Source: Georgenia soli (lineage in GTDB: Bacteria; Actinomycetota; Actinomycetes; Actinomycetales; Actinomycetaceae). Taken from it: a stretch of DNA of 64,000 bases. The translations under genes and the position numbers were made by a program. This document shows, in pieces, positions 41,249-64,000 of the stretch. The DNA is taken from assembly GCF_002563695.1 (NCBI RefSeq), contig NZ_PDJI01000004.1, forward strand, positions 3,910,701 to 3,974,700. Reading direction: 5' to 3'. Below the pieces are notes generated by a model, which was given only the letters and a program-made list of their open reading frames with translations, was not told where the DNA came from and did not search any database. How positions within the stretch are numbered: position 1 is the stretch's first letter; each line of letters begins with the position of its first letter.

Positions 41249-41288
41249 AGGCGGTGCTCAGCAAGAGCCCACGGTGCTCAGCGTGAAC

Positions 41289-43312: not shown

Positions 43313-43359
43313 CGGGCGGCTCACCCCGCGTACGCCGGCGGCGCGTCACCGGCAGACGC

Positions 43360-43409: not shown

Positions 43410-43426
43410 TGGGGCGAGGTCGAGGC

Positions 43427-44149
43427 TCAGCGGCCGCGCATGCCCTTGCGGTCAGGGCGCGCCTTCATCGGGTCGATGCCCTTGGGGATGGGCATCTTGG
43501 TGCTGCCCAGCGCCTGGAGCCGCTTGGCCACCTGGGCCACCTCGGCGGTCGTGAGCGTCTTCTTGAGGCCCTGCACCGTCTTCGTGAGCTTGCCGATGGG
43601 CACCTGGCCCTGGTCGTTGCCGTACTGCACGAGGTGCACGGGAACGTTCGGCGCGACCCGGGCGACCTTCCGGCGCTCGTCCTCGAGCATGCGGGTCACA
43701 CGGTGCGAAGGCCCCTCGGAGACGAGCACGATGCCGGGGCGTCCCACCATCCGGTACACCAGGTCCTGGTGGCGCGGGTTGACGGCGACGGGCTGCTCCT
43801 CGATGTTCCACCCGCGGCGGATCTGCCCGAGCACGGCACCGGCCGCCCCGGGCCGTCCGTCGATCTGGGAGTAGCTGGCCCTCCGGGTCTGCGTGGCCAG
43901 GACGATCATCATCGCCATCAGGGCCAGCAGCAGCCCGAAGAAGGACATGTAGACCGGGTGGCCCCAGGCGAAGCCGATGCCGAGCGCAATACCCATCACG
44001 AGCACGAAGACGCCGACGAGCATCCAGGTGATCGACGGGTTGACCTGCCGCGTGAGGCGGTAGGCGTCACGGATGTTGTGGTACCAGCGCTGCTTCTTCT
44101 CCGTGGGTGCGGCGGAGACGTTCTCGCCGTCCTTCTTCTTGCGGGCCAT
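43427..44149 (-). CDS. DUF4191 domain membrane protein
   Basis: A 240-residue protein of the actinobacterial DUF4191 family. Two adjacent membrane helices (about 45-90) follow a basic N-terminus; the C-terminal cytoplasmic part includes GRPGIVLVSEGPSHRVTRML. In most actinobacteria the family lies next to lipA; here lipA is absent. The ATG is preceded by a TATCGT box 8 nt upstream. Confidence 0.88.
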   Translation of the reverse strand: MARKKKDGENVSAAPTEKKQRWYHNIRDAYRLTRQVNPSITWMLVGVFVLVMGIALGIGFAWGHPVYMSFFGLLLALMAMMIVLATQTRRASYSQIDGRPGAAGAVLGQIRRGWNIEEQPVAVNPRHQDLVYRMVGRPGIVLVSEGPSHRVTRMLEDERRKVARVAPNVPVHLVQYGNDQGQVPIGKLTKTVQGLKKTLTTAEVAQVAKRLQALGSTKMPIPKGIDPMKARPDRKGMRGR

Positions 44150-44194
44150 GATGCCCAACGATACCGGCCCGCCGCGGCCGTCCGGACCGGCGGG

Positions 44195-44350
44195 TCACCG
44201 CTCGAGGGCTGCGGCCTCCTGGCGCGACGTCGTCGGCTCGGACAGGTGGGCGAGGGCCGGTGCGCCGGGACGGTCGGGGAGCAGGTCGGTGTCCGGACGC
44301 TCGCCGGCCACGACCTCCGCATGGATGAGACGTCGGGGCTCCAGGCCCAT
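44195..44350 (-). other. short open frame of 51 codons, uncertain
   Basis: The gap between DUF4191 and marR (44150-44391) holds an open frame beginning MGLEPRRLIHAEVV. No RBS is clear and no family is recognised. It could be a remnant of a larger gene whose N-terminal part was lost; it does not resemble the C-termini of LipA or LipB. Confidence 0.2.
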
Positions 44351-44391
44351 CGGCAGTCGACCAGTCCGGTGCCGAGGACCACGCGTTCGAG

Positions 44392-44949
44392 CTAGTCCGG
44401 TGTCGGGTCAGGACGGCCGTGCTCGACCAGCCGCACGAGGAGGTCGCGGAGGGTGGCGAGCTGAACGGGGGAGAGGGCGTCGCCGAGGAGGCTCTCGACG
44501 GTGGTCGGGTCGTCCAGCGCGGCCAGGGCGGACCTGCCCGCCTCGGTGATGGCCACGACCTGCCGGCGCCGGTCGGTGGCATGCCTGCGGCGGTCGACGT
44601 AGCCGGACCGCTCGAGGCCCGTGAGCATCCGGCTCGTGGTCTGCTCCGTCACGCCGAGGAAGGCGGCGATCTCGCGCTGGGAGCGCGGGCCGCCCGCCAG
44701 CACGGCCAGCACGGGCAGGGAGGCGTGGCTGAGGGACCACCGCTCGAGGTAGGCGTCCCACGTGCGTTCGACCCGGCGTGCGGCCGCCGAGAGGAGCCGC
44801 CCGGTGGGCCACTGGTCGGGGGCGACGCCGACCCCGGGGCCGGCTCCTGCGCCGCCAGGGCCGCGGGGGCCCGGCCCGGCAGCCGACGTGCCGTCGGCGG
44901 TCGAGGCGCCGGCTCTCGGTCCGGCCGCGGCCTGCGGGGGGGTGGTCAC
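44392..44949 (-). CDS. MarR-family transcriptional regulator
   Basis: A 185-residue winged-helix regulator with an N-terminal Gly/Pro-rich extension of about 45 residues. The core reads RSQREIAAFLGVTEQTTSRMLTGLERSGYVDRRRHATDRR, the typical MarR DNA-binding helix and wing. It is divergent from an MMPL exporter and probably represses it. The GTG start has AAAGGATGAGG upstream. Confidence 0.9.
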   Translation of the reverse strand: MTTPPQAAAGPRAGASTADGTSAAGPGPRGPGGAGAGPGVGVAPDQWPTGRLLSAAARRVERTWDAYLERWSLSHASLPVLAVLAGGPRSQREIAAFLGVTEQTTSRMLTGLERSGYVDRRRHATDRRRQVVAITEAGRSALAALDDPTTVESLLGDALSPVQLATLRDLLVRLVEHGRPDPTPD

Positions 44950-44997
44950 GCCTCATCCTTTCAGGTGGTCGGTGCCCGGCCCGACTTGCCGAGCGGT

Positions 44998-45039
44998 GAT
45001 CGTTAGCCTCACTATTGATCAGCCTGCTGAGTAACGATC
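44998..45039. promoter_or_regulatory. candidate MarR operator in the marR-mmpL intergenic region
   Basis: An 8-bp perfect inverted repeat (GATCGTTA at 44998-45005 with TAACGATC at 45032-45039) brackets 26 bp that contain the TGATCA palindrome and two AGCCT direct repeats. It covers the only region where both divergent promoters can lie. Confidence 0.5.
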
Positions 45040-45062
45040 GTCCGCACAACCCGGAGGACTCC

Positions 45063-47417: not shown

Positions 47418-47418
47418 T

Positions 47419-47450
47419 CCACAGGCGGGGCCGCCCGGCCGTCCCTGTGG
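47419..47450 (+). terminator. possible terminator after mmpL
   Basis: A 7-bp stem CCACAGG/CCTGTGG encloses a second GGCC stem, just after the stop codon. Confidence 0.45.
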
Positions 47451-47493
47451 AGGGCGCGGGCGACGGCGCACGCGACCCTGCTTGGGTCGGTGC

Positions 47494-48900
47494 ATGTCCG
47501 TCATCCGCCGGTCCCGCCCCACCCCGGTCACCGAGGTGCCCGGGTACCGACTCGAGACGCCGGTGGGCTTCGGGGCGGGTGGGGCGGTGTGGGGCGCCCG
47601 CGACGCGGCGGGCCGACCCGTCGCCGTCTCGTTCGTGACGCTGCCGCCGGGGGAGCGTGGGACCGCCGCGCTGCGCCGGCTCGGTGCCCTCAGGGCGGCG
47701 GCGCACCCGCACCTGCCGCGGGTGCTGGACGTCGTGGGACTCGACCCGGCCAGGTGCGCCCTGGTCGCCGAGATCGTCGACGGGCCCACGCTGGCGACCG
47801 TCCGTGCTGCGCGCGGAGACCTGCCACCGGAGGCGTCGGCGACCTTGCTGGGCGCGCTCGCCTCCGCGCTGGCCCACCTGCACGACCACGGAGTCGTCCA
47901 CGGTGACGTCGCCCCGACGAACGTGGTGCTGACCGCGGCCGGGGTCCCCGTGCTCGTCGACCTCGCCGGTGAGGCCTCCCACGAGCGCGGCACACCGGGG
48001 TTCGTCGCGCCCGAGCGTCGCAGCGGCTCTCCGGCCAGCACCGCCGCCGACGTGTGGGCACTCGCCCGCGTGGTCAGCTGGGCGGCGGGCGACCGGAGGG
48101 GCCCCGGCGACCCGGTAGGCCCCAGCGCCTCGGGAGCCCCCGGCGGACCCGGTGTCGCAGCGTCGCCCGCCGCGGGCCCGCTCACCGCCGCGCTCTCACC
48201 GGACCCGGCGCTCCGGCCGTCCGCGCAGGAGCTCGCCCGGTTCGCGGCCACCATGCCGGCCGCGGCGGCGATCGAGCTGCCGTCCGGCGCCGACCTCGCG
48301 CAGGCACGGCTCCGGTCCGGCCAGGCGGCCACCGAGGTCGCCCCGTCCCGTCGGCCGCGCGGCAGGCACCGACGGCCGCGCCGGCTGGGTCGACGTCGTG
48401 CCGCCCTCGCCGTGACGGCCCTCGCACTGGTGGCGGGCGCCGTACTTCCTGTCCTCGGCGCGACCTCCGCGCCACCGGCGCCGGTCACGCCCGCGGAGGC
48501 GTCCGCGCTGGTGCGCGACCTCGTGGCAGCGCGGGACGAGGCGCTGCGCGACGGCCGCACGGAGGTCCTGGCGGAGCTGACGGTCCCGGGGTCTCCCGCC
48601 GCGGCGGAGGACGAGCTCCTGGTGGAGCGGCTGCGCACCGCGGGCGTGCGGGCGGAGGGGCTGAGCACCACCGTCGACGAGGTCCGGCTCGTCTCGGCCG
48701 ACGGCGGCCCCTCGCCGAGCGCCGTCGTGGAGGCGGTGCTGCGTCAGGAGGGGTACCGACTGGTGCCGGCCGACGGGTCCGGCGAGGAGGGCGGGCAGCC
48801 CGTGGAGGCGCGGGCGCCGCGCTGCCTGCGCATGGCGCTCAGCGGCCCCGCGCCGTGGCGGCTCAGCGAGGCGTCGACCTGCGGCGGCTCGGCAGGATGA
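47494..48900 (+). CDS. membrane pseudokinase (Ser/Thr kinase-like) with extracytoplasmic domain
   Basis: A 468-residue protein whose first 250 residues have a protein-kinase fold. The Gly-rich loop (GFGAGGAVWG) and catalytic loop HGDVAPTN (Asp138, Asn143) are present, but the ATP-anchoring lysine of the VAVK motif is Ser46 (VAVSF), the DFG is DLA at 156-158 and the usual HRD is HGD. A basic stretch and a single membrane helix (about 302-325) follow, then about 140 extracytoplasmic residues with two cysteines near the C terminus. It is likely catalytically dead or highly atypical, perhaps a scaffold or sensor. MviN-type pseudokinase fusions are an analogy only. The ATG was chosen by domain start; the spacing to an RBS is poor. 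Confidence 0.82.
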   Translation: MSVIRRSRPTPVTEVPGYRLETPVGFGAGGAVWGARDAAGRPVAVSFVTLPPGERGTAALRRLGALRAAAHPHLPRVLDVVGLDPARCALVAEIVDGPTLATVRAARGDLPPEASATLLGALASALAHLHDHGVVHGDVAPTNVVLTAAGVPVLVDLAGEASHERGTPGFVAPERRSGSPASTAADVWALARVVSWAAGDRRGPGDPVGPSASGAPGGPGVAASPAAGPLTAALSPDPALRPSAQELARFAATMPAAAAIELPSGADLAQARLRSGQAATEVAPSRRPRGRHRRPRRLGRRRAALAVTALALVAGAVLPVLGATSAPPAPVTPAEASALVRDLVAARDEALRDGRTEVLAELTVPGSPAAAEDELLVERLRTAGVRAEGLSTTVDEVRLVSADGGPSPSAVVEAVLRQEGYRLVPADGSGEEGGQPVEARAPRCLRMALSGPAPWRLSEASTCGGSAG

Positions 48901-48939
48901 ACGGCTCCGGGAAAGGGGCCACCCGGACCCTCGACCACC

Positions 48940-49911
48940 TCACTCCGAGCGCGCCGAACCGCGGTCGGCCACCCACGGTGCGGCGGCCGCGAGGTCCGGG
49001 TGCAGGTAGACCAGGCCGTCGTCGAGGAGCACCCGGGGCGCCACCCGGCGGGAGGCGGCGAGGAAGTCGGCGAAATCGCGCCCGGCGAGGGCCAGCGCCG
49101 CCCGGGGGGCCCGCACGACTGCGGGCCGGTGCATGGCCGCGGCCAGGGCGGCCACGACCTCGCCCTGCCTGGCGGCACCGGGGGCGGCGAGGTTGACCGG
49201 TCCGGTCACCGACGAGTCGATGAGGTGCAGCTGGGCACGCACGTGGTCGGCCAGCGTGATCCACGGGAACCACTGCCGTCCGCCGGCGATCGGCCCGCCG
49301 AGCCCCAGCCGGATGAGCGTGGTGAGCGGGGCGATGGCCCCGCCGGACGGCGCCAGGGCGGGGGCGGTGCGCAGGAGGACCACCTGCGCGCCGGCGTCGG
49401 CGGCCGGGGCGGTGGCGGCCTCCCACTGCCGGCAGACGTCGGCCAGGAAGCCGTCGCCGGGGTCGGACGTCTCGGTGAGCACCTCGTCGCCGCGGTCGCC
49501 GTAGACGTCGGTGCCGCTCGCCTGCAGGAGACGCACCCGCCGGCCGTCGTGGTCGATCGCCCGGGCGACGGCCTCGGCGAGGATCCGTGTGCCGTCGACC
49601 CGGGACCGGAGGATCTCCTCCTTGTAGGCGGCCGTCCACGGCAGCCGGCCCAGGGAGGCGCCGCCCAGGTTCACGACGACGTCCACGCCGTCGAGCGCGG
49701 CGCGGTCGAGCGCTCCGGAGGCCGGGTCCCAGCCGACCTCGTCGGGTGCCCTGGGGCCGCGGCGCACCAGACGCCGGACGACGTCGCCGCGGTGCCGGAG
49801 GTGGCGGACCAGGTGGTGGCCCAGGAAGCCGGAGGCCCCCGCGACGAGCACGGTGCGGGTGCCGGCGACGGCCGGTGCGGTTCCGGCGGCGTTCACCGCG
49901 GTGGTGGCCAT
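48940..49911 (-). CDS. TIGR01777-family NAD(P)-dependent epimerase (SDR39U1-like)
   Basis: A 323-residue extended-SDR protein. The nucleotide motif GASGFLGHHLVRHL is near residue 25, followed by NLGGASLG and the YxxxK-like core. In M. tuberculosis the orthologous position (Rv2216) is next to dlaT and lipB. The reaction is unknown. Confidence 0.88.
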   Translation of the reverse strand: MATTAVNAAGTAPAVAGTRTVLVAGASGFLGHHLVRHLRHRGDVVRRLVRRGPRAPDEVGWDPASGALDRAALDGVDVVVNLGGASLGRLPWTAAYKEEILRSRVDGTRILAEAVARAIDHDGRRVRLLQASGTDVYGDRGDEVLTETSDPGDGFLADVCRQWEAATAPAADAGAQVVLLRTAPALAPSGGAIAPLTTLIRLGLGGPIAGGRQWFPWITLADHVRAQLHLIDSSVTGPVNLAAPGAARQGEVVAALAAAMHRPAVVRAPRAALALAGRDFADFLAASRRVAPRVLLDDGLVYLHPDLAAAAPWVADRGSARSE

Positions 49912-49944
49912 GGCCTCACGCTAACGGCGCCCCCGGGCAGATGC

Positions 49945-49981
49945 CACGGGGCCCCGCACCGTGATGGTGCGGGGCCCCGTG
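49945..49981 (-). terminator. terminator of the sucB-lpdA transcript
   Basis: Perfect 16-bp stem (49945-49960 with 49966-49981), 5-nt loop, 19 bp past the sucB stop. Confidence 0.88.
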
Positions 49982-50000
49982 CCGGGCACGCGTCAGCGCG

Positions 50001-51848
50001 TCACAGACCGACCTCGGCGTCGAAGGCGCCCTCCTCCAGGCGGGCCTTGACGGTCGAGAGGAAGCGGCCGGCGTCGGCGCCGTCGACCAGGCGGTGGTCG
50101 TACGTCAGCGACAGGTAGATCATCGAGCGGATGCCGATGGTGTCGTTGCCGTCGGCGTCCGTGACGACCATCGGACGCTTGACGATCGTCCCCACACCGA
50201 GGATGGCGACCTCGGGCTGGTTGATGATCGGCGTGTCCAGCAGGAGCCCGGCCGACCCGGTGTTGGTGATCGTGAAGGTCGAGCCGGACAGCTCGTCCGG
50301 GGTGACCTTGCTGTCCCGGGTGCGGGCGGCGAGGTCGTTGATCTTCTTGGCGATGCCGCCGATCGTCAGGTCACCGGCGTCCTTGATGACCGGGACCAGC
50401 AGGCCGCGCGGGGTGTCGACCGCGATGCCGATGTGCTCGGCGCCGTGGTAGATCACCTGCTCGTCGTCGATCGTCGCGTTGAGCTTCGGGTGCGCCTTGA
50501 GGGCCTCCGTCGCCGCCTTGACGAAGAACGGCAGGAAGGTCAGCTTCGTGCCCTCTGCGGCCTGGAACGCGGACTTCGCCCGGGCCCTCAGGGTCGCGAT
50601 GCGGGTGACGTCCACCTCCACCACGGAGGTCAGCTGGGCGGAGGTGTCCAGCGACTCGCGCATGCGCTTGGAGATGACCTTGCGCAGGCGCGACATCTTC
50701 TCGGTCGTGCCGCGCAGCGGGGAGACCTCGACGGGAGCCGGCGTCCTGGCAGGGGCAGACGCCGCGGGCGCCTGGGCCGGTGCCGCTGCGGCGGCCTTCT
50801 CGGCGGCGGCCTGCTCGGCCGCTGCCTCGACGTCCTGCTTGCGGATACGGCCCCCCACGCCGGTGCCCTCCACCGTGGACAGGTCCACGTCGAGGTCCGC
50901 GGCGAGCTTGCGCACGAGCGGGGTGATGTAGGCGGTGCCGGCGGCGGCCGCGGCCCTCGGCGCCTCACGACGCGTCTCGGCCTTCGGCGCCTGCGGCTCG
51001 GCCGGCTGCGCGGCGCCGCTCCGCGGCTGCTGCTTGGGTGCCTCGGCGGCGGGGGCCGGCTCCTCCTTGGGCGCCTCGGCCGCGGGGGCCGGCTCCTCCT
51101 TGGGGGCCTCAGCGGCGGGTGCCGCCTCAGCCTTGGGGGCCTCCGCCTTCGGAGCCTCGGCCTGCGGGGCGGCGGATCCGGCCGCGCCCACGATCGCGAG
51201 GTCGGTGCCGACCTCGACGGTCTCGTCCTCCTGGACGAGGATCTTCACCACGGTGCCGGCCACGGGGGAGGGCACCTCGGTGTCGACCTTGTCGGTGGAG
51301 ACCTCCAGAAGCGGCTCGTCGACCTCGACCGTGTCGCCCTCGGCCTTGAGCCAGCGGGTGACGGTGCCCTCGGTGACGGACTCGCCGAGCGCCGGCATCT
51401 TCACGGCCTCGCCCGAGGCCTCGCCGCCGGCGGCGGGGGCGGAGGCGGTCGCCTCCTCCTTCGCCTGCTCGGCCGGCCTGGCCTCCTCGGCGGCCGGCTG
51501 CGCGGCCTCGACGGCCTCGGCGGCGGGCTGGCCGCCGGCCGCCGGCGCCGTGTCCGGCTCGCCGCTCGTGCCCTGCTCCGCGGGAGCCTGCTCGCCGTCG
51601 GAGGAGCCGGACCCGTCACCGATCACGGCGAGGTCCGTGCCGACCTCGACCGTCTCGTCCTCCTCCACGAGGATCTTCTCGACCACGCCGGCGACGGGGG
51701 AGGGCACCTCGGTGTCGACCTTGTCGGTGGAGACCTCGAGCAGCGGCTCGTCGACCTCGACCGTCTCCCCGACCGCCTTGAGCCACCGCGTGACGGTGCC
51801 CTCGGTGACGGACTCGCCCAGCGCGGGCATCTTCACGGACTCAGACAT
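50001..51848 (-). CDS. sucB: 2-oxoacid dehydrogenase E2 (dihydrolipoyl acyltransferase)
   Basis: A 615-residue E2 with two tandem lipoyl domains (lipoyl Lys43 in STDKVDTEV and the second at about 188), a peripheral-subunit-binding domain ([19 protein letters not shown]) and the C-terminal catalytic core with [10 protein letters not shown]. The linker after the second lipoyl domain has repeats of about 13 residues, [11 protein letters not shown], encoded by 39-bp tandem DNA repeats (51038-51125). In actinobacteria such an E2 (DlaT) can serve the pyruvate dehydrogenase complex with AceE; which substrate is used here is inferred only. Confidence 0.93.
51038..51125. repeat. 39-bp tandem repeat in the sucB linker
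   Basis: Two full units and a diverged third encode the Pro/Ala-rich mobile linker. Such repeats can change copy number without disturbing the frame. Confidence 0.75.
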
Positions 51849-51872
51849 GTCCTGGAATCTCCTTCGATCGGG

Positions 51873-53252
51873 TCAGTTGTGCGCGTGCAGCGGCTTGCCG
51901 GCGAGGGCCAGGGCGGCCTCGCCCAGCGCCTCGTCCTGCGTCGGGTGGGCGTGGACGAGGGCGGCGACGTCCTCCGGGTAGGCCTCCCAGTTCACGATCA
52001 GCTGGCCCTCGCCGATGAGCTCGCCGACACGGGCGCCGAGCATGTGCACCCCGACGATCGGGCCGTCCTTCTCGCGCACGAGCTTGACGAAGCCCTGCGT
52101 CTGGAGGATCTGGGACTTGCCGTTGCCGCCGAGGTTGTACTCGAGGGCGAGGACGTTGTCCGCGCCGTAGGCCTCCTTGGCCTCGGCCTCGGTGAGGCCG
52201 ACGGAGGCGACGTTCGGCTCGCAGTACGTGACCCGGGGGATGCCGGACTCGACGATGGGCGCGGGGTTGAGGCCCGCGATCTCCTCGGCGACGAAGATGC
52301 CCTGCTGGAAGCCACGGTGGGCGAGCTGGAGACCGGGGACGATGTCGCCGACTGCGTAGACGTTGCCCACGCCCGTGTGCAGGCGCTCGTTCGTGAGCAC
52401 GAAGCCGCGCTCCATGGGGATGCCGTTCTCCTCGTACCCGAGGTTGGCGGTGGCGGGGCCGCGGCCGACGGCGACGAGGAGGATCTCGGCCTCGAAGGTC
52501 TTCCCGTCCTGGGTGGTGACCTTCACGCCGTCGTCGGTCTGCTCGACGCCGGAGAACATGGTCTTGGTGTGGAAGGCGATCTTGCGCTTGCGGAACGCGC
52601 GCTCCAGCCCCTTGGACAGGGCCACGTCCTCGTTCGGGACCAGGTTCGGCAGGCCCTCGATGATGGTGACGTCGGTGCCGAAGGAGTTCCAGACGGAGGC
52701 GAACTCGACGCCGATGACGCCGCCGCCGAGGACGATCGCGCTCTTCGGGACGAAGTCCAGCTCCAGGGCCTGCTCGGAGGTCAGCACGCGGCCGCCGATC
52801 TCGAGGCCGGGCAGCGACTTGGAGTAGGAGCCGGAGGCCAGGATGACGTGCTTGCCCTTGTACCGGGTGCCGTCGACCTCGACCGTGTCCTGCGAGACGA
52901 GCTTGCCCCACCCGTTGACGAGGTTGACCTTGCGGGAGGAGACGAGCCCCTGCAGGCCCTTGTAGAGGCGGTTGACGATGCCCTCCTTGAAGGAGTTCAC
53001 CGCGCTGACGTCGATGCCCTCGAGGGAGCTCTTGACGCCCACGCCCGCGCTCTCGCGGATGGTGTCGGCCACCTCGGCGGAGTGGAGCAGCGCCTTGGTC
53101 GGGATGCAGCCGCGGTGCAGGCAGGTGCCGCCGAGCTTGTCGGCCTCGATCAGGGCGACCGTCAGGTCGAGCTCGGCCGCCCGGAGCGCCGCCGCGTAGC
53201 CGCCGCTACCCGCCCCCAGGATGACGATGTCGTACTCCTGCGTATCAGCCAC
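51873..53252 (-). CDS. lpdA: dihydrolipoyl dehydrogenase (E3)
   Basis: A 459-residue flavoprotein that reoxidises the lipoyl groups of E2. The FAD motif [15 protein letters not shown], the redox pair Cys44/Cys49 in [15 protein letters not shown], the NAD motif GGGVIGVEF and the C-terminal HAHPTQDE active-site His-Glu are present. The GTG at 53252 has RBS AGGAGAGG. It is 24 bp upstream of sucB on the same strand. The first 341 bases of this gene are present again, inverted, at 63660-64000. Confidence 0.95.
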   Translation of the reverse strand: MADTQEYDIVILGAGSGGYAAALRAAELDLTVALIEADKLGGTCLHRGCIPTKALLHSAEVADTIRESAGVGVKSSLEGIDVSAVNSFKEGIVNRLYKGLQGLVSSRKVNLVNGWGKLVSQDTVEVDGTRYKGKHVILASGSYSKSLPGLEIGGRVLTSEQALELDFVPKSAIVLGGGVIGVEFASVWNSFGTDVTIIEGLPNLVPNEDVALSKGLERAFRKRKIAFHTKTMFSGVEQTDDGVKVTTQDGKTFEAEILLVAVGRGPATANLGYEENGIPMERGFVLTNERLHTGVGNVYAVGDIVPGLQLAHRGFQQGIFVAEEIAGLNPAPIVESGIPRVTYCEPNVASVGLTEAEAKEAYGADNVLALEYNLGGNGKSQILQTQGFVKLVREKDGPIVGVHMLGARVGELIGEGQLIVNWEAYPEDVAALVHAHPTQDEALGEAALALAGKPLHAHN

Positions 53253-53408
53253 GTACCTCTCCTTGAGCGCACAAATGACCCTGACTGGGTCCGGTTCGCG
53301 GCCATTCTTCCACCCAAACCTCGTCCAGGCCCATTCGTCCCATGCCGCGAGCGTCACACCGCAGGGGTGCGGTGCGTCACATGCGGGCCGCGAGGACAGG
53401 AGCGAGCG

Positions 53409-53436
53409 GGCGGGCGCACGACGTCGAGCGCCCGCC
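53409..53436 (-). terminator. terminator of pepA
   Basis: Perfect 9-bp stem GGCGGGCGC (53409-53417 with 53428-53436), 10-nt loop, 19 bp past the pepA stop. A second smaller stem is at 53357-53374. The mirror copy is at 63476-63503. Confidence 0.65.
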
Positions 53437-53454
53437 TTCGCCCTCGGGGCACCG

Positions 53455-54930
53455 TCAGGCCCGGGCGGCGGCCTCGAGCACGCCGAGCAGGGTGCGCAGG
53501 CCCATGCCGGTGCCGCCCTTGGGGGTGTAGCCGTAGGGGCCGCCCTCGTTGTAGGCGGGACCGGCCACGTCGAGGTGGGCCCAGGGGAGGTCGCCGACGA
53601 ACTCCTTCAGGAACAGCCCGGCCACGAGCATGCCGCCGTACCGGTCGCCCATGTTGGCGATGTCGGCGACCGGCGACTTCAGCGACTCGCGCAGCTCCTC
53701 GGGCAGCGGCATCGGCCAGAACTGCTCGCCGACCCCCTGCGCGGCCGCCACGACCTCCTCACGGGTGGCGTCGGTGCCCATGACGGCCCCCACGCGGGCG
53801 CCGAGCGCCACCATCTGCGCGCCGGTGAGGGTCGCGATGTCGATGATCGCGTCGGGGTTCTCCTCGCGGGCCGCGGCGAGTGCGTCGGCCATGACGAGAC
53901 GACCCTCGGCGTCGGTGTTGAGCACCTCGACGGTGGTGCCGTCACGCATGGTGACGACGTCGGAGGGCCGCTGCGCGCCGCCGCCGGGCATGTTCTCCGC
54001 GAGGGCGAGCCAGCCGGTCACTTTGACCGGCAGGTCCAGCGCCGCGGCCGCGAGCACGGTGTGCAGGACGGTGGCGGCGCCCGCCATGTCGTCCTTCATG
54101 TTCTCCATGCCCTTGGCGGGCTTGAGGGACAGGCCGCCGGAGTCGAAGGTGATGCCCTTGCCGACGAGGGAGTAGTGCGCACGGGCACGGGCGGGGGAGT
54201 GGACGACCTTGACCAGGCGCGGCGGGCGGGCGGAGCCCTGGCCGACACCGAGGATGCCGCCGTAGCCGCCCGCGGCGAGCTGCTTCTCGTCGAGCACCGT
54301 GACCTTCACGCGCGAACCCTTGGCCGCGGCGAGCGCCTCCTCGGCGAAGGACTGCGGGTACAGGTGCTTCGGGGAGGCGTTGACCAGGTCCCGGACGCCG
54401 CGCACGCCGTCGGCCACGGCCTGCGCGCGGGCCAGGGCGGCACGGGTCTCCTTCTGCCGGGCCGCCGGGGTCGCGAGCTCGATGCGGGCCACGGGCGCGG
54501 GGTCGCTCGTGCGGTAGTGGTCGAAGCGGTAGGCACCCAGCAGCGCACCCTCGGCGACGGCACCCACCTGTGCGGCGTCGTCGGCGGGCAGGGCGAGGAC
54601 GACGTCGGCGGAGCCGGCGAGCGAGCGCACGGCGGCGCCGGCCGCGCGGCGCAGCGCCTCCGGACCCACCTGACCGTCGGTGACCTTGCCCACGCCGGTG
54701 AGGACCACGACGGTAGCGGCCAGCTCCTCGCCGGCGGGGAGCCGGACGACCTCGTCGCCCTTGCCCGTCACGCCGAGCGCAGGCAGCAGAGCGCCAAGGG
54801 GCGCAAGGACCTTCGGCGGCAGGCCGGCCGCCAGGAGGCGGGGGCCGTCGTCGTCCTGGGCGACGGCGAGGACGATCGCGTCGGCGCTCGTGCGGGCGGG
54901 GTCCTTGGTGCTGAGCTTGAGGTCGGTCAC
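53455..54930 (-). CDS. pepA: leucyl aminopeptidase (M17), intact left-arm copy
   Basis: A 491-residue two-metal aminopeptidase, cytosolic. The metal and catalytic residues lie in GKGITFDSGG, KDDMAGAATV and [14 protein letters not shown] (LAP signature), followed by [14 protein letters not shown]. The N-terminal domain is typical. The GTG at 54930 is preceded on the minus strand by TAGCAT, 8 nt upstream. Orthologue of PepB of M. tuberculosis (Rv2213), in the expected position near dlaT. The second copy at 61988-63457 is broken. Confidence 0.95.
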   Translation of the reverse strand: MTDLKLSTKDPARTSADAIVLAVAQDDDGPRLLAAGLPPKVLAPLGALLPALGVTGKGDEVVRLPAGEELAATVVVLTGVGKVTDGQVGPEALRRAAGAAVRSLAGSADVVLALPADDAAQVGAVAEGALLGAYRFDHYRTSDPAPVARIELATPAARQKETRAALARAQAVADGVRGVRDLVNASPKHLYPQSFAEEALAAAKGSRVKVTVLDEKQLAAGGYGGILGVGQGSARPPRLVKVVHSPARARAHYSLVGKGITFDSGGLSLKPAKGMENMKDDMAGAATVLHTVLAAAALDLPVKVTGWLALAENMPGGGAQRPSDVVTMRDGTTVEVLNTDAEGRLVMADALAAAREENPDAIIDIATLTGAQMVALGARVGAVMGTDATREEVVAAAQGVGEQFWPMPLPEELRESLKSPVADIANMGDRYGGMLVAGLFLKEFVGDLPWAHLDVAGPAYNEGGPYGYTPKGGTGMGLRTLLGVLEAAARA

Positions 54931-54976
54931 GATCCCGAATGCTAGCCCGGCCGCCGCCGGGCGGTAATCTCCCGGG

Positions 54977-55330
54977 GTGCTCCCCACCGTCCTGATCACC
55001 TCGGTCCTCGCCGCCGCGCTCGGCCTGTGGGCGGCGTGGTACGCGGTGCGGGACCGCCCCGTGCTCTTCAAGCAGCTGGTCGGCGCGGGGGCCGTCGAGG
55101 CCGCCCTGCTCGCCCAGGTCGTCGTCGCCCTCGTGGCCGGGGCCGGCGGGCACGTCCCCAGCGAGCCGTGGACGTTCTGGGGCTACCTCGTCACCGCGCT
55201 GTTCCTGCTGCCGGTGGCGGCGGTGTGGGCGATGGCGGACCGTACCCGTACGAGCTCGGTGGCGCTGCTGGTCGTCTGCGTCGCCATCCTGGCGATGCAG
55301 GCGCGGGTGTGGCAGGTGTGGACGGCGTGA
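54977..55330 (+). CDS. small integral membrane protein
   Basis: A 117-residue hydrophobic protein with about four helices and no recognised domain. TAATCT (54965-54970) is 6 nt before the GTG, so it is leaderless. It is divergent from pepA and leads into the next membrane protein gene. Confidence 0.75.
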   Translation: MLPTVLITSVLAAALGLWAAWYAVRDRPVLFKQLVGAGAVEAALLAQVVVALVAGAGGHVPSEPWTFWGYLVTALFLLPVAAVWAMADRTRTSSVALLVVCVAILAMQARVWQVWTA

Positions 55331-55341
55331 GCGGAGACGAG

Positions 55342-55833
55342 ATGAGCACCAACGACGAGGCCGCCGTGCGGTCGCGGCCCGAACGCGAGGAGGTCGTCAC
55401 GACCTCCGCCGTGGACACCCGGCGCCCGGCCTTCGGCCTGGGGCGCGTCCTGATCCTGGTGTACGGCATCTTCGCCGTCGCGGCCACGGCCCGGGCGGGC
55501 GTGCAGCTGATCACCAAGGCGGACGAGGCGCCGCTCGCCTACGGGCTGTCCGCCCTCGCCGGCGTCGTGTACGTGGTCGCCACCGTCGCGCTCGCCCACA
55601 ACGGCCGCCGCATGCGGCGCGTCGGCTGGACCGCCGTGGTCTTCGAGCTGGTCGGGGTGCTGACGGTGGGCACGCTGAGCGTGGTCAGCCCCGAGCTGTT
55701 CCCCGACGACACGGTCTGGTCCGGCTTCGGCAGCGGCTACGGGTACGTGCCGGCGGTCCTGCCGCTGCTCGGCATCGCCTGGTTGTGGCACTCCAGCCCG
55801 GCCCGGATCGCCGCACGCGCCGACCGCGGCTGA
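55342..55833 (+). CDS. integral membrane protein, about four helices
   Basis: A 163-residue membrane protein with a hydrophilic N-terminal 30 residues. I recognise the type from actinobacteria next to the preceding gene but know no function. The ATG at 55342 is preceded by GGAGACG; a GTG at 55327 that overlaps the upstream stop (GTGA) is an alternative that adds five residues. Confidence 0.75.
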   Translation: MSTNDEAAVRSRPEREEVVTTSAVDTRRPAFGLGRVLILVYGIFAVAATARAGVQLITKADEAPLAYGLSALAGVVYVVATVALAHNGRRMRRVGWTAVVFELVGVLTVGTLSVVSPELFPDDTVWSGFGSGYGYVPAVLPLLGIAWLWHSSPARIAARADRG

Positions 55834-55901
55834 CCAGCCCTGGTCCGCGGCGCCGGGCGGTGCCGCAGGACCCGCCGGGGTCGCGGGTAGGCTCGCGCGA
55901 C

Positions 55902-56933
55902 GTGTACCGGCTCCTCTTCCGCACCCTGGCCGTCCGTGTCGACCCTGAGCGTGCGCACCTGCTCGCGCTCGGGCTGATTCGCACCGTCTCCCGTGTCCCG
56001 GTGCTCTCCGACGCCGTCCGTGCGACCCTCGGCCGTCGCCCCGACGTCCCGGTGCCCGCGGCCGCCGACGGCGGTCCCCTCGCACGCCCCGTCCCCGGGG
56101 TCCTCGGCCTGGCGGCCGGGATGGACAAGGACGCGGACACGGTGCTGGGCATGGACATGATCGGGTTCGGCTTCGTCGAGGTCGGCACGGTCACCGCCCG
56201 GCCCCAGCCGGGCAACGAGCGGCCGCGCCTGTGGCGTCACGTCGAGCTCGGCGCCCTGCGCAACCGCATGGGGTTCAACAACCGCGGGGCCACCGCCGCC
56301 GGCGAGCAGCTGCGGCGCCTGCGCCGCTCCCGGCGGGGCCGTTCCGTCGTCGTCGGGGCGAACATCGGCAAGAGCAAGGTCACCCCGCTCGACGGCGCCG
56401 TCGCCGACTACGAGACGAGCGCCCGGGAGGTCGCCCGGTGGGCCGACTACCTCGTCGTCAACGTCTCCTCACCGAACACGCCCGGCCTGCGCGACCTGCA
56501 GGCCGTGGACTCGCTGCGCCCGATCCTCGCCGCCGTGCGCCGGGCCGCCGACGAGTCCGCCGGGCGCGCGGTCCCGCTGTTCGTCAAGATCGCGCCGGAC
56601 CTCTCCGACGACGACGTCGACGCGGTCGCGGACCTGGCGCTGGAGCTCGGGCTCGCCGGCGTGGTGGCGACCAACACCACCGTGAACCACGACCTCGGGC
56701 CCGGCGGGCTGTCCGGCTCGCCGCTGCGGGAGCGCTCGCTCGCCGTCGTCTCGCGGCTGCGCGGGCGGCTGGGGGAGCGGGGCACCATCATCGGCGTCGG
56801 GGGCATCTCGACCGAGGCCGACGCCCGCGCGATGATCGCCGCCGGCGCCGACCTGCTGCAGGCCTACTCCGCGTTCGTCTACGAGGGCCCGGCGTGGCCG
56901 GGCCGGATCAACCGGGCCCTCGGGCGACGCTGA
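55902..56933 (+). CDS. pyrD: dihydroorotate dehydrogenase, class 2
   Basis: A 343-residue FMN enzyme that oxidises dihydroorotate to orotate with quinone, membrane-associated. N-terminal membrane-contact helices precede the barrel. Signatures: [37 protein letters not shown], the catalytic serine region [18 protein letters not shown] and [11 protein letters not shown]. The GTG at 55902 is chosen from a TAGGCT box 8 nt upstream. Confidence 0.95.
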
Positions 56934-56943
56934 GCCGCGCGGC

Positions 56944-57018
56944 TCAGGCGGGGTGCTCGCCCCGCGCCCACCTGGGGCTTCGTCAGGCGGGGTACTCGCC
57001 CCGCCCCACCTGGGGCTT
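56944..57018. repeat. tandem duplication of the DUF3043 3' end
   Basis: A 37-bp copy (56944-56980) of the last 36 bp of the DUF3043 gene (56983-57018) lies directly after it, with a 1-bp insertion and one substitution. It can form GC-rich hairpins, so it may double as a convergent terminator with pyrD. Confidence 0.75.
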
Positions 57019-57561
57019 GGGCTGACGCATGCGGCGGAAGTAGAAGCTGCGCCCGAACGCGTAGAACCCGGTCCACGGCTGGATCTGGTCGGCGCCGAAC
57101 TTCTTGCGCAGCCGGCGCTTGAGCAGCTGGACCATGATCAGGGAGTCGACGATCGCGACGAGCAGGACCCCGTACATGCCCAGCACCAGGGCGTTGGCGA
57201 GCTGCGGGAACTGCCCGGCGAACATCATCGCCACGATCATCACCAGCGCGAGCGGCATGAAGAACTCGGCGATCGACCAGCGTGCGTCGACGTAGTCGCG
57301 GGCGTACCGGCGCACCGGTCCCTTGTCGCGCAGCGGGAGGTAGCGCTCGTCGCCGGTGACCATCGCCTGGCGCTGCTTCATGTAGGCCTCGTTGCGCTGC
57401 TCGCGCGCGATCCGACGGGCCTCCTTGCGGTCGTCCGGCACGAGCGGGCGCCGGTTGCGGGCCTCGGCCTCCCTGCGCGTGGGCGTGGGGCGGCCCTTCC
57501 CGCCGGCGGTCTCGACGGGCTGCGGCTCAGGCTCGACGGGGGTCTTCTTGCGTCCGATCAC
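56983..57561 (-). CDS. DUF3043 family membrane protein
   Basis: A 192-residue actinobacterial DUF3043 protein: a basic, charged N-terminal half (about 1-90), two membrane helices around 100-150, and a C-terminal basic tail. Function unknown. The GTG at 57561 is 6 nt from a minus-strand TACCCT (plus 57568-57573), a leaderless start. It is divergent from the M20 gene with only 52 bp between starts. Confidence 0.88.
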   Translation of the reverse strand: MIGRKKTPVEPEPQPVETAGGKGRPTPTRREAEARNRRPLVPDDRKEARRIAREQRNEAYMKQRQAMVTGDERYLPLRDKGPVRRYARDYVDARWSIAEFFMPLALVMIVAMMFAGQFPQLANALVLGMYGVLLVAIVDSLIMVQLLKRRLRKKFGADQIQPWTGFYAFGRSFYFRRMRQPKPQVGRGEYPA

Positions 57562-57613
57562 CCCAGCAGGGTAGTCGAGCCGTGGAACCGGACGGGCGAC
57601 TACCCTCGCTCGG
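57562..57613. promoter_or_regulatory. 52-bp divergent region with two leaderless promoters
   Basis: TACCCT on the minus strand (57568-57573) and TACCCT on the plus strand (57601-57606) each end 6 to 7 nt before their GTG start. The two promoters face away from each other and must share or overlap upstream elements. The mirror copy is at 59305-59356. Confidence 0.65.
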
Positions 57614-58402
57614 GTGACCACCGTCGACGAACTCGCCCGCCGCACCCACGAGGCCTTCGGCCGCGTCCGTTCCGACCTCGAGGACCTCGTGCGCATCCCC
57701 AGCGTCTCCTCGCCGGCCTTCGACCAGGCGCACGTGCGTGCCAGCGCGGAGGCGGTCGCCGCCCTGCTGCGCGACGCCGGCATGCCGCAGGTCGACGTCC
57801 TGGAGGTGGAGCTGCCCGACGGCGGGAAGGGACGTCCCGCCGTCGTCGCCCACCGGCCGGGTCCCGACGGCGCACCCACCGTCCTCCTCTACGCGCACCA
57901 CGACGTCCAGCCCCCGGGCGACCCCGCCGGCTGGACCTCGGACCCGTTCGAGCCGACGCAGCGGGGCGAGCGGCTCTACGGCCGCGGCGCGGCGGACGAC
58001 AAGGCCGGGATCATGGCGCACGTCGGGGCCCTGCGGGTCCTCGGCGACGAGCTCGCCGTGGGCGTGACCGTCTTCGTCGAGGGTGAGGAGGAGATCGGCT
58101 CCCCGACCTTCACCCCGTTCCTGCAGGCCTACCGCGACCGCCTGGAGGCGGACGTCATCGTCGTCGCGGACTCCAGCAACTGGAAGGTGGGCGTGCCCGC
58201 CCTGACCACGTCGCTGCGGGGCCTCGTCGACTGTGAGGTCGAGGTGCGGGTGCTCGGGCACGCCGTCCACTCCGGGATGTTCGGCGGCCCTGTGCTCGAC
58301 GCCGTCACCGCTGAATGTCCCGCCTGGTCGCGACGCTGCACGACGAACAACGGCGACGTGGCCGTGGCCGGGGCTCGCCTCCCGCGACGAGGCCGACGTC
58401 GA
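57614..58402 (+). pseudogene. M20-family dipeptidase, left copy, truncated by the fold
   Basis: Zinc dipeptidase related to ArgE/DapE/CPG2. Readable ligands: His95 and Asp97 (YAHHDVQP), Asp128-Asp129 (GRGAADDKAG), Glu158-Glu160 (EGEEEIGSP) and the HAVHSGMFGG dimerisation motif. The frame is intact for about 230 codons, then meets four single-base insertions after 58300 and is lost at the palindrome tip; the C-terminal half of the family (about 200 residues) is absent from the window. Confidence 0.9.
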
Positions 58403-58519
58403 GGCCGAATGACCGAGAATGCCGGCTTTCGTCCACATGCGGGCGGCGAACGGGCCGGTGCCGGCGAGGCGGTAGCCGTCCACCCCGCCGCGTCGGAGCG
58501 GAACTGGTCCTCGGGGTAG
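58403..58519. other. loop of the palindrome
   Basis: 117 bp unique to the tip. On the minus strand they continue the right-arm M20 gene, but the frame must be changed three times to follow the family sequence (SDAA-VDGYRLAGTGPFAARMW, then KPAFSVI, then a GL-D ending). The tip therefore looks error-rich. Confidence 0.85.
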
Positions 58520-59304
58520 TCGACGTCGGCCTCGTCGCGGGAGGCGAGCCCGGCCACGGCCACGTCGCCGTTGTCGTCGTGCAGCGTCGCGACCAGGCGG
58601 GACATCAGCGTGACGGCGTCGAGCACAGGGCCGCCGAACATCCCGGAGTGGACGGCGTGCCCGAGCACCCGCACCTCGACCTCACAGTCGACGAGGCCCC
58701 GCAGCGACGTGGTCAGGGCGGGCACGCCCACCTTCCAGTTGCTGGAGTCCGCGACGACGATGACGTCCGCCTCCAGGCGGTCGCGGTAGGCCTGCAGGAA
58801 CGGGGTGAAGGTCGGGGAGCCGATCTCCTCCTCACCCTCGACGAAGACGGTCACGCCCACGGCGAGCTCGTCGCCGAGGACCCGCAGGGCCCCGACGTGC
58901 GCCATGATCCCGGCCTTGTCGTCCGCCGCGCCGCGGCCGTAGAGCCGCTCGCCCCGCTGCGTCGGCTCGAACGGGTCCGAGGTCCAGCCGGCGGGGTCGC
59001 CCGGGGGCTGGACGTCGTGGTGCGCGTAGAGGAGGACGGTGGGTGCGCCGTCGGGACCCGGCCGGTGGGCGACGACGGCGGGACGTCCCTTCCCGCCGTC
59101 GGGCAGCTCCACCTCCAGGACGTCGACCTGCGGCATGCCGGCGTCGCGCAGCAGGGCGGCGACCGCCTCCGCGCTGGCACGCACGTGCGCCTGGTCGAAG
59201 GCCGGCGAGGAGACGCTGGGGATGCGCACGAGGTCCTCGAGGTCGGAACGGACGCGGCCGAAGGCCTCGTGGGTGCGGCGGGCGAGTTCGTCGACGGTGG
59301 TCAC
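58403..59304 (-). pseudogene. M20-family dipeptidase, right (mirror) copy, frameshifted and cut by the fold
   Basis: Starts at GTG 59304 and matches the left copy to the loop, where it carries further than the left copy: DEADVDYPEDQFRSDAA and then, after frameshifts near 58484, the RMW and KPAFSVI region. It never reaches a natural stop before the turn. Confidence 0.9.
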
Positions 59305-59356
59305 CCGAGCGAGGGTAGTCGCCCGTCCGGTTCCACGGCTCGACTACCCTGCTGGG

Positions 59357-59935
59357 GTGATCGGACGCAAGAAGACCCCCGTCGAGCCTGAGCCGCAGCC
59401 CGTCGAGACCGCCGGCGGGAAGGGCCGCCCCACGCCCACGCGCAGGGAGGCCGAGGCCCGCAACCGGCGCCCGCTCGTGCCGGACGACCGCAAGGAGGCC
59501 CGTCGGATCGCGCGCGAGCAGCGCAACGAGGCCTACATGAAGCAGCGCCAGGCGATGGTCACCGGCGACGAGCGCTACCTCCCGCTGCGCGACAAGGGAC
59601 CGGTGCGCCGGTACGCCCGCGACTACGTCGACGCACGCTGGTCGATCGCCGAGTTCTTCATGCCGCTCGCGCTGGTGATGATCGTGGCGATGATGTTCGC
59701 CGGGCAGTTCCCGCAGCTCGCCAACGCCCTGGTGCTGGGCATGTACGGGGTCCTGCTCGTCGCGATCGTCGACTCCCTGATCATGGTCCAGCTGCTCAAG
59801 CGCCGGCTGCGCAAGAAGTTCGGCGCCGACCAGATCCAGCCGTGGACCGGGTTCTACGCGTTCGGGCGCAGCTTCTACTTCCGCCGCATGCGTCAGCCCA
59901 AGCCCCAGGTGGGGCGGGGCGAGTACCCCGCCTGA
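59357..59935 (+). CDS. DUF3043 protein, mirror copy
   Basis: Identical translation to the gene at 56983-57561. Confidence 0.9.
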   Translation: MIGRKKTPVEPEPQPVETAGGKGRPTPTRREAEARNRRPLVPDDRKEARRIAREQRNEAYMKQRQAMVTGDERYLPLRDKGPVRRYARDYVDARWSIAEFFMPLALVMIVAMMFAGQFPQLANALVLGMYGVLLVAIVDSLIMVQLLKRRLRKKFGADQIQPWTGFYAFGRSFYFRRMRQPKPQVGRGEYPA

Positions 59936-59984
59936 CGAAGCCCCAGGTGGGCGCGGGGCGAGCACCCCGCCTGAGCCGCGCGGC

Positions 59985-61016
59985 TCAGCGTCGCCCGAGG
60001 GCCCGGTTGATCCGGCCCGGCCACGCCGGGCCCTCGTAGACGAACGCGGAGTAGGCCTGCAGCAGGTCGGCGCCGGCGGCGATCATCGCGCGGGCGTCGG
60101 CCTCGGTCGAGATGCCCCCGACGCCGATGATGGTGCCCCGCTCCCCCAGCCGCCCGCGCAGCCGCGAGACGACGGCGAGCGAGCGCTCCCGCAGCGGCGA
60201 GCCGGACAGCCCGCCGGGCCCGAGGTCGTGGTTCACGGTGGTGTTGGTCGCCACCACGCCGGCGAGCCCGAGCTCCAGCGCCAGGTCCGCGACCGCGTCG
60301 ACGTCGTCGTCGGAGAGGTCCGGCGCGATCTTGACGAACAGCGGGACCGCGCGCCCGGCGGACTCGTCGGCGGCCCGGCGCACGGCGGCGAGGATCGGGC
60401 GCAGCGAGTCCACGGCCTGCAGGTCGCGCAGGCCGGGCGTGTTCGGTGAGGAGACGTTGACGACGAGGTAGTCGGCCCACCGGGCGACCTCCCGGGCGCT
60501 CGTCTCGTAGTCGGCGACGGCGCCGTCGAGCGGGGTGACCTTGCTCTTGCCGATGTTCGCCCCGACGACGACGGAACGGCCCCGCCGGGAGCGGCGCAGG
60601 CGCCGCAGCTGCTCGCCGGCGGCGGTGGCCCCGCGGTTGTTGAACCCCATGCGGTTGCGCAGGGCGCCGAGCTCGACGTGACGCCACAGGCGCGGCCGCT
60701 CGTTGCCCGGCTGGGGCCGGGCGGTGACCGTGCCGACCTCGACGAAGCCGAACCCGATCATGTCCATGCCCAGCACCGTGTCCGCGTCCTTGTCCATCCC
60801 GGCCGCCAGGCCGAGGACCCCGGGGACGGGGCGTGCGAGGGGACCGCCGTCGGCGGCCGCGGGCACCGGGACGTCGGGGCGACGGCCGAGGGTCGCACGG
60901 ACGGCGTCGGAGAGCACCGGGACACGGGAGACGGTGCGAATCAGCCCGAGCGCGAGCAGGTGCGCACGCTCAGGGTCGACACGGACGGCCAGGGTGCGGA
61001 AGAGGAGCCGGTACAC
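59985..61016 (-). CDS. pyrD: dihydroorotate dehydrogenase, mirror copy
   Basis: Identical translation to the gene at 55902-56933. A second complete housekeeping pyrD next to the first is unusual and supports an artefact. Confidence 0.9.
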
Positions 61017-61084
61017 GTCGCGCGAGCCTACCCGCGACCCCGGCGGGTCCTGCGGCACCGCCCGGCGCCGCGGACCAGGGCTGG

Positions 61085-61576
61085 TCAGCCGCGGTCGGCG
61101 CGTGCGGCGATCCGGGCCGGGCTGGAGTGCCACAACCAGGCGATGCCGAGCAGCGGCAGGACCGCCGGCACGTACCCGTAGCCGCTGCCGAAGCCGGACC
61201 AGACCGTGTCGTCGGGGAACAGCTCGGGGCTGACCACGCTCAGCGTGCCCACCGTCAGCACCCCGACCAGCTCGAAGACCACGGCGGTCCAGCCGACGCG
61301 CCGCATGCGGCGGCCGTTGTGGGCGAGCGCGACGGTGGCGACCACGTACACGACGCCGGCGAGGGCGGACAGCCCGTAGGCGAGCGGCGCCTCGTCCGCC
61401 TTGGTGATCAGCTGCACGCCCGCCCGGGCCGTGGCCGCGACGGCGAAGATGCCGTACACCAGGATCAGGACGCGCCCCAGGCCGAAGGCCGGGCGCCGGG
61501 TGTCCACGGCGGAGGTCGTGACGACCTCCTCGCGTTCGGGCCGCGACCGCACGGCGGCCTCGTCGTTGGTGCTCAT
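61085..61576 (-). CDS. integral membrane protein, mirror copy
   Basis: Identical to 55342-55833. Confidence 0.85.
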   Translation of the reverse strand: MSTNDEAAVRSRPEREEVVTTSAVDTRRPAFGLGRVLILVYGIFAVAATARAGVQLITKADEAPLAYGLSALAGVVYVVATVALAHNGRRMRRVGWTAVVFELVGVLTVGTLSVVSPELFPDDTVWSGFGSGYGYVPAVLPLLGIAWLWHSSPARIAARADRG

Positions 61577-61587
61577 CTCGTCTCCGC

Positions 61588-61941
61588 TCACGCCGTCCAC
61601 ACCTGCCACACCCGCGCCTGCATCGCCAGGATGGCGACGCAGACGACCAGCAGCGCCACCGAGCTCGTACGGGTACGGTCCGCCATCGCCCACACCGCCG
61701 CCACCGGCAGCAGGAACAGCGCGGTGACGAGGTAGCCCCAGAACGTCCACGGCTCGCTGGGGACGTGCCCGCCGGCCCCGGCCACGAGGGCGACGACGAC
61801 CTGGGCGAGCAGGGCGGCCTCGACGGCCCCCGCGCCGACCAGCTGCTTGAAGAGCACGGGGCGGTCCCGCACCGCGTACCACGCCGCCCACAGGCCGAGC
61901 GCGGCGGCGAGGACCGAGGTGATCAGGACGGTGGGGAGCAC
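61588..61941 (-). CDS. small membrane protein, mirror copy
   Basis: Identical to 54977-55330. Confidence 0.85.
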   Translation of the reverse strand: MLPTVLITSVLAAALGLWAAWYAVRDRPVLFKQLVGAGAVEAALLAQVVVALVAGAGGHVPSEPWTFWGYLVTALFLLPVAAVWAMADRTRTSSVALLVVCVAILAMQARVWQVWTA

Positions 61942-61987
61942 CCCGGGAGATTACCGCCCGGCGGCGGCCGGGCTAGCATTCGGGATC

Positions 61988-63457
61988 GTGACCGACCTCA
62001 AGCTCAGCACCAAGGACCCCGCCCGCACGAGCGCCGACGCGATCGTCCTCGCCGTCGCCCAGGACGACGACGGCCCCCGCCTCCTGGCGGCCGGCCTGCC
62101 GCCGAAGGTCCTTGCGCCCCTTGGCGCTCTGCTGCCTGCGCTCGGCGTGACGGGCAAGGGCGACGAGGTCGTCCGGCTCCCCGCCGGCGAGGAGCTGGCC
62201 GCTACCGTCGTGGTCCTCACCGGCGTGGGCAAGGTCACCGACGGTCAGGTGGGTCCGGAGGCGCTGCGCCGCGCGGCCGGCGCCGCCGTGCGCTCGCTCG
62301 CCGGCTCCGCCGACGTCGTCCTCGCCCTGCCCGCCGACGACGCCGCACAGGTGGGTGCCGTCGCCGAGGGTGCGCTGCTGGGTGCCTACCGCTTCGACCA
62401 CTACCGCACGAGCGACCCCGCGCCCGTGGCCCGCATCGAGCTCGCGACCCCGGCCCGGCAGAAGGAGACCCGTGCCGCCCTGGCCCGCGCGCAGGCCGTG
62501 GCCGACGGCGTGCGCGGCGTCCGGGACCTGGTCAACGCCTCCCCGAAGCACCTGTACCCGCAGTCCTTCGCCGAGGAGGCGCTCGCCGCGGCCAAGGGTT
62601 CGCGCGTGAAGGTCACGGTGCTCGACGAGAAGCAGCTCGCCGCGGGCGGCTACGGCGGCATCCTCGGTGTCGGCCAGGGCTCCGCCCGCCCGCCGCGCCT
62701 GGTCAAGGTCGTCCACTCCCCCGCCCGTGCCCGTGCGCACTACTCCCTCGTCGGCAAGGGCATCACCTTCGACTCCGGCGGCCTGTCCCTCAAGCCCGCC
62801 AAGGGCATGGAGAACATGAAGGACGACATGGCGGGCGCCGCCACCGTCCTGCACACCGTGCTCGCGGCCGCGGCGCTGGACCTGCCGGTCAAAGTGACCG
62901 GCTGGCTCGCCCTCGCGGAGAACATGCCCGGCGGCGGCGCGCAGCGGCCCTCCGACGTCGTCACCATGCGTGACGGCACCACCGTCGAGGTGCTCAACCG
63001 ACGCCGAGGGTCGTCTCGTCATGGCCGACGCACTCGCCGCGGCCCGCGAGGAGAACCCCGACGCGATCATCGACATCGCGACCCTCACCGGCGCGCAGAT
63101 GGTGGCGCTCGGCGCCCGCGTGGGGGCCGTCATGGGCACCGACGCCACCCGTGAGGAGGTCGTGGCGGCCGCGCAGGGGGTCGGCGAGCAGTTCTGGCCG
63201 ATGCCGCTGCCCGAGGAGCTGCGCGAGTCGCTGAAGTCGCCGGTCGCCGACATCGCCAACATGGGCGACCGGTACGGCGGCATGCTCGTGGCCGGGCTGT
63301 TCCTGAAGGAGTTCGTCGGCGACCTCCCTGGGCCCACCTCGACGTGGCCGGTCCCGCCTACAACGAGGGCGGCCCCTACGGCTACACCCCCAAGGGCGGC
63401 ACCGGCATGGGCCTGCGCACCCTGCTCGGCGTGCTCGAGGCCGCCGCCCGGGCCTGA
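61988..63457 (+). pseudogene. pepA: leucyl aminopeptidase, mirror copy with frameshift
   Basis: Differs from the intact copy by loss of one Ala codon (near 62456), a 2-bp deletion near 62998 that destroys the NTDAEGRL metal motif, and a 1-bp deletion near 63329 in a run of C that restores frame. About 110 codons between the last two are out of frame, so this copy could not make an active enzyme. Confidence 0.92.
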
Positions 63458-63659
63458 CGGTGCCCCGAGGGCGAAGGCGGGCGCTCGACGTCGTGCGCCC
63501 GCCCGCTCGCTCCTGTCCTCGCGGCCCGCATGTGACGCACCGCACCCCTGCGGTGTGACGCTCGCGGCATGGGACGAATGGGCCTGGACGAGGTTTGGGT
63601 GGAAGAATGGCCGCGAACCGGACCCAGTCAGGGTCATTTGTGCGCTCAAGGAGAGGTAC

Positions 63660-64000
63660 GTGGCTGATACGCAGGAGTACGACATCGTCATCCTGGGGGC
63701 GGGTAGCGGCGGCTACGCGGCGGCGCTCCGGGCGGCCGAGCTCGACCTGACGGTCGCCCTGATCGAGGCCGACAAGCTCGGCGGCACCTGCCTGCACCGC
63801 GGCTGCATCCCGACCAAGGCGCTGCTCCACTCCGCCGAGGTGGCCGACACCATCCGCGAGAGCGCGGGCGTGGGCGTCAAGAGCTCCCTCGAGGGCATCG
63901 ACGTCAGCGCGGTGAACTCCTTCAAGGAGGGCATCGTCAACCGCCTCTACAAGGGCCTGCAGGGGCTCGTCTCCTCCCGCAAGGTCAACCTCGTCAACGG
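63660..64000 (+). CDS. lpdA: dihydrolipoyl dehydrogenase, mirror copy, partial
   Basis: First 113 codons of lpdA, identical to the left copy (FAD motif and the Cys44/Cys49 pair), cut by the end of the window. Confidence 0.9.

Follow-up and report, generated by a model that had tools for sequence, protein, structure and literature searches.

In long-read assemblies, contigs that have not been circularised may keep redundant ends, in which the last part of the contig is a direct overlap with the first. Palindromic sequence has been described from other sources. If a SMRTbell adapter goes unrecognised in PacBio sequencing, one strand is followed in the same read by its own complement. According to the available sections of PMC3504050, unsplit adapters affect about 1% of PacBio reads, and those of PMC6218980 report palindromes in 0.5% of unamplified PacBio control reads, which are ascribed there to false positives and missed adapters. 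The existence of chimeric reads and missed adapters is likewise noted in excerpts of the HINGE and DENTIST papers (PMC5411769, PMC8848313). In nanopore sequencing, the template and complement strands may be read as one molecule; excerpts of PMC12870357, in which the fold-back class is defined by a return within 200 bp, put fold-backs at about 0.55-0.6% of ONT gDNA reads and find virtually none in PacBio HiFi data in that one survey, and the accessible part of PMC13141652 gives 0.18-7.33% for inverted-repeat reads. If DNA is instead subjected to whole-genome amplification, a displaced 3' end may prime on a nearby strand. In the portion of PMC1855051 available, the main MDA product is an inverted join between parts <10 kb apart that have 2-21 bases in common, and 85% of the chimeras (406/475) are inverted, mostly sharing bases at the join.

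The window analysed here is a 64,000-nucleotide stretch of Georgenia soli, positions 3910701-3974700 of contig NZ_PDJI01000004.1 (hereafter C4), in an assembly of four contigs and 4,273,660 bases (completeness 99.57, contamination 1.45). It ends in a palindrome (52912-64000) that is almost certainly a sequencing or assembly artefact of the contig end and very probably absent from the organism. C4 resembles an uncircularised contig with redundant ends in its direct start/end overlap (10.2 kb, and 14.4 kb on a second contig, C3), and differs in that a fold-back comes after the overlap.

Structure of the palindrome

The palindrome is the sole inverted match of the window to itself (BLAST, minus strand, word 20, E 1e-5), and a 5.5-kb match at the identity of its arms can be taken as far beyond chance. 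The features of the region are as follows (window coordinates).

48177-58402, plus strand: redundant contig end, direct copy of C4:1-10221 (99.892% identity, 0 mismatches, 11 gap columns)
51873-53357, minus strand: lpdA-like dihydrolipoamide dehydrogenase ORF, whole, 494 aa, its 5' part inside the left arm
52912-58402, plus strand: left arm, 5491 bp, ordinary chromosomal sequence except for differences at 58309-58370
53455-55071, minus strand: pepA-like leucyl aminopeptidase ORF, 538 aa, Peptidase_M17
55785-56933, plus strand: pyrD-like dihydroorotate dehydrogenase ORF, DHO_dh, mirror copy at 59985-61133
56983-57636, minus strand: DUF3043 ORF, its end placed by reference to C4:8806-9459
57614-58402, plus strand: first part of M20 peptidase gene, which the turn interrupts (whole copy, 453 aa, at C4:9437-10798)
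58397-58402, plus strand: CGTCGA, six bases at the join that are compatible with either strand, outgoing or returning, when exact matches are extended from each side
58403-58519, minus strand: turn, 117 bp, reverse complement of the true M20 continuation beyond C4:10221
58520-64000, minus strand: right (returning) arm, 5481 bp, chromosomal sequence in reverse complement, truncated where the contig ends

An earlier note on this sequence had given the same arm coordinates and a 117-bp loop, with which self-BLAST and the arm alignment agree, and had called the arms identical except for a few indels, which is borne out by 14 differing columns in the arm-to-arm alignment. With the third copy (contig start) as reference, eight of these columns are deviant in the left arm, all within 58309-58370 beside the turn, and the remaining six in the right arm (62455-63329, towards the end of the contig). 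The loop has the size that was claimed for it but is not a neutral spacer: window 58397-64000 as a whole is the reverse complement of C4:10343-4735 (99.786%), and the "loop" therefore consists of M20 sequence from the opposite strand, with several differences. Finally, where seven gene segments had been listed, we count six, namely lpdA (part), pepA, an ORF without a Pfam match, pyrD, DUF3043, and M20 (part).

Among these genes, lpdA is cut only in its right-arm copy, by the contig end, and its copy at the contig start carries Pyr_redox_2 and Pyr_redox_dim. The right-arm copy of pepA is frameshifted (61847-63154, 435 aa). Genome searches with pepA, pyrD, and the first part of M20 each returned three full-length matches, two in the palindrome and one near the start of C4, and the other matches in those searches (3 in one, 14 in another) are partial, at 23-629 bases.

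Direct overlap and fold-back at the end of C4

The earlier note had proposed checking whether the contig ends soon after 64000, and it ends exactly there: C4 is 3,974,700 bp long, and the final base of the window is its final base. For this reason the right arm has no far flank. The second arm of a real duplication would lead into other chromosomal sequence, whereas here the assembled contig ends inside the arm, although reads may extend beyond it. Taken together, the direct copy and the reversed copy indicate that the contig rounds the circle once, goes 10.2 kb further, and then turns back. On the strength of the direct end overlap, the chromosome would be circular, with approximately 3,958,876 bp per turn.

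The outgoing strand matches the contig start up to C4:10221, and the returning strand matches it from 10343 downwards; ahead of the turn, the outgoing strand lacks 116-122 bases. CGTCGA lies at C4:10216-10221, and its inverted counterpart, TCGACG, at 10338-10343. Relative to the contig-start copy, window 48177-64000 has 17 difference events in 15,824 bp, eight of which are concentrated within 150 bp on either side of the turn (300 bp), compared with nine in the remaining 15,524 bp. Such clustering, which is a proxy for depth and not a measurement of it, has the look of a consensus built from few reads across the turn and few extending to the end, and depth at the turn was presumably low. A mobile element at the turn was also considered and was rejected on position, the turn being inside the M20 gene.

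The redundant ends also differ further upstream. An acyltransferase ORF is 405 aa long at the contig start (2454-3671) and 615 aa long in the window (50001-51848); thus, the two ends disagree, and some differences are particular to the contig start. Inside this ORF is a 215-bp direct repeat (window 51196-51410 and 51628-51842, 89.8% identity), the two units of which we take to be probably two lipoyl domains.

Sequence through the turn position in the other copy and in relatives

At the contig start, M20 is a complete ORF that is followed by further genes in unique sequence, some of which we read as cytochrome c oxidase subunits. Among 80 loci related to the M20 protein, six are titled Georgenia, and in alignments of C4:1-20000 to these loci, position 10221 is crossed unbroken in all six. 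By sequence comparison, uninterrupted sequence is the ordinary state at this position. Gene order elsewhere in the six loci varies, with the pyrD stretch inverted in three and insertions between pyrD, DUF3043, and M20 in others. The three loci with the inversion are from Georgenia satyanarayanai; there, the pyrD stretch is reversed with respect to the neighbouring sequence when compared with the G. soli genome.

Across 38 other genomes, pyrD is single in 32, was not found in six, and never occurs twice. A search with the broken end of M20 (window 58129-58402) gave a single strong match per genome in the eight other genomes of the genus, three of them single-contig; four of the eight show an additional weak match of 32-50 bases. 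Of the named relatives of the M20 protein, that of Georgenia sp. EYE_87 is the nearest (92% identical over residues 1-443). M20 proteins with 62% and 68% identity to this actinobacterial one occur, respectively, in a record titled Vibrio cholerae strain 35D and in a MAG titled Proteobacteria bacterium, which likely reflects contamination or mislabelling.

A second fold-back on C3 and control stretches

The layout of C4 recurs on contig C3 (163,917 bp), where a fold-back that has a 119-bp turn and runs to the contig end comes after a 14.4-kb direct end overlap. Specifically, C3:1-14443 corresponds directly to 143721-158155 (99.903%), giving a unit length of about 143,720 bp, and C3:158158-163917 is the reverse complement of 14561-8809 (99.567%). 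The fold-backs are of similar length (5.76 kb on C3 and 5.60 kb on C4), and the outgoing strand lacks 114 bases ahead of the C3 turn by exact extension (118 by BLAST). The head and tail of C3 have no match of at least 300 bp to the window or to the C4 start. Two such similar cases speak for one technical cause. However, differences are less strongly concentrated at the C3 turn (three events in 300 bp and 35 in 19,897 bp) than at that of C4, which counts somewhat against an artefact, and the returning strand of C3 is poorer overall, with 24 events in 5,762 bp versus 14 in 14,435 bp on the outgoing side.

Fold-backs scattered through the assembly were considered as well. In 27 control stretches, each examined alone (18 from the C4 interior, three from C1, three from C2, two from C3, and the C4 start; 539,882 of 4,273,660 bases), there were neither fold-backs nor any inverted repeats of at least 200 bp at >80% identity. 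C1, covered except for 40001-55161, and C2, covered whole in three pieces, have no palindrome and no direct end overlap of at least 300 bp. Segments of 0.3-2.6 kb at 78-92% identity are common to C1:55162-75161 and C2:1-20000, and to C1:37423-40000 and C3:7758-10303, as between related plasmids or mobile elements.

Origin of the palindrome

Very probably, the assembly of a circular chromosome stopped at a linear, redundantly ended contig that passed its own start by 10.2 kb and was then extended by fold-back sequence, in which one DNA strand is followed by its complement, yielding a mirror copy up to the contig end. The extension may rest on one or a few long reads, and the source would be unsplit fold-back long reads at contig ends, with the kind of fold-back suggested by the features of the turns. 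The case for such a contig-end artefact is built on the contig end itself, the direct overlap, the intact through-sequence, the reversed turn and right arm, the likeness of C3, and the differences at the turn. The earlier note had likewise preferred a fold-back chimera to a real inverted duplication, and the contig end, the intact M20 copy, and C3 all support that preference. It had also pointed to reads continuing through M20 into its normal C-terminus as evidence against a biological palindrome; that C-terminal part is present in the other copy, at the level of the assembly and not of reads, which comes near to this.

Granted an artefact, its most probable route is an unsplit (missed) PacBio SMRTbell adapter, and the verdict of an artefact is independent of this route. 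As in the palindromic reads described in excerpts of PMC3504050 and PMC6218980, a strand is followed by its own complement, and adapter-like bases occur at the C3 turn. There, exact extension leaves six bases, AGAGAT, that fit neither side (the BLAST alignment absorbs them via two insertions) and that sit in the place and orientation expected before the returning strand. These six bases are identical to the final six of the SMRTbell adapter printed in the part of PMC5218489 available. The probability of any given hexamer is 1 in 4096, but the match was noticed post hoc. Unlike such reads, the C4 turn retains no adapter bases on exact extension, and the outgoing strand is 114-122 bases short before the turns. 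A missed adapter alone leaves these missing bases (114 at C3 and 116-122 at C4) unexplained. The near absence of fold-backs from PacBio HiFi data in the survey of PMC12870357 also counts against this route.

A nanopore fold-back, in which template and complement were read as one, could produce the same artefact and is a tentative second choice. The frequencies cited above make such reads a plausible source, and both turns return within the 200 bp that define the fold-back class of PMC12870357. However, adapter-like bases of the C3 type would not be expected in these reads, which is a weak clue against this route. Somewhat more doubtful is a chimera of whole-genome amplification. The C4 turn is like the inverted MDA chimeras in the excerpted PMC1855051, being an inverted join of parts <10 kb apart with six bases common to both strands. 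The C3 turn differs from them in having no shared bases and six extra ones instead, as does the sampled rest of the assembly, which is free of inverted repeats of at least 200 bp in the 27 control stretches. Furthermore, amplified DNA does not usually give an assembly of four contigs that is 99.57% complete.

Biological explanations fare far worse. A real inverted duplication, fixed or in a subpopulation, could arise by template switching at the short inverted repeat CGTCGA/TCGACG, and the six bases common at the join are what a microhomology-driven switch would leave; moreover, artefactual and true fold-backs can look alike in sequence. Such a duplication is nevertheless very improbable. The other copy in the assembly and all six Georgenia loci run straight through, the right arm has no far flank, and pyrD is never present twice in the 38 other genomes. 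Since the unrelated contig C3 ends alike, two independent rearrangements would be needed, each at a redundant contig end. It is equally improbable that a minority of the chromosome and C3 molecules carry real fold-back duplications and that the assembler followed a rare read at each redundant end. Least credible of all is a linear replicon that ends at the turn, in a hairpin telomere or a terminal inverted repeat, and is read round its end. Although both fold-backs are at contig ends, the sequence at the contig start carries the replicon beyond the turn position, through the complete M20 and further, and the contig-end overlap is direct, as in a circle, and not inverted.

Significance

If the contig end is taken at face value, the three full-length copies of pyrD, pepA, and the first part of M20 could be miscounted as real duplications. 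Similarly, spurious copies of this kind might raise contamination estimates, such as the value of 1.45 listed for this genome, and surveys of palindromes would gain one false inverted repeat. A simple filter would be to flag contigs whose end consists of a direct copy of the start plus a palindrome. As data quality, the palindrome at the end of C4 is significant; as biology, it very probably has no significance for G. soli, and its mirrored genes should not be annotated as duplications.
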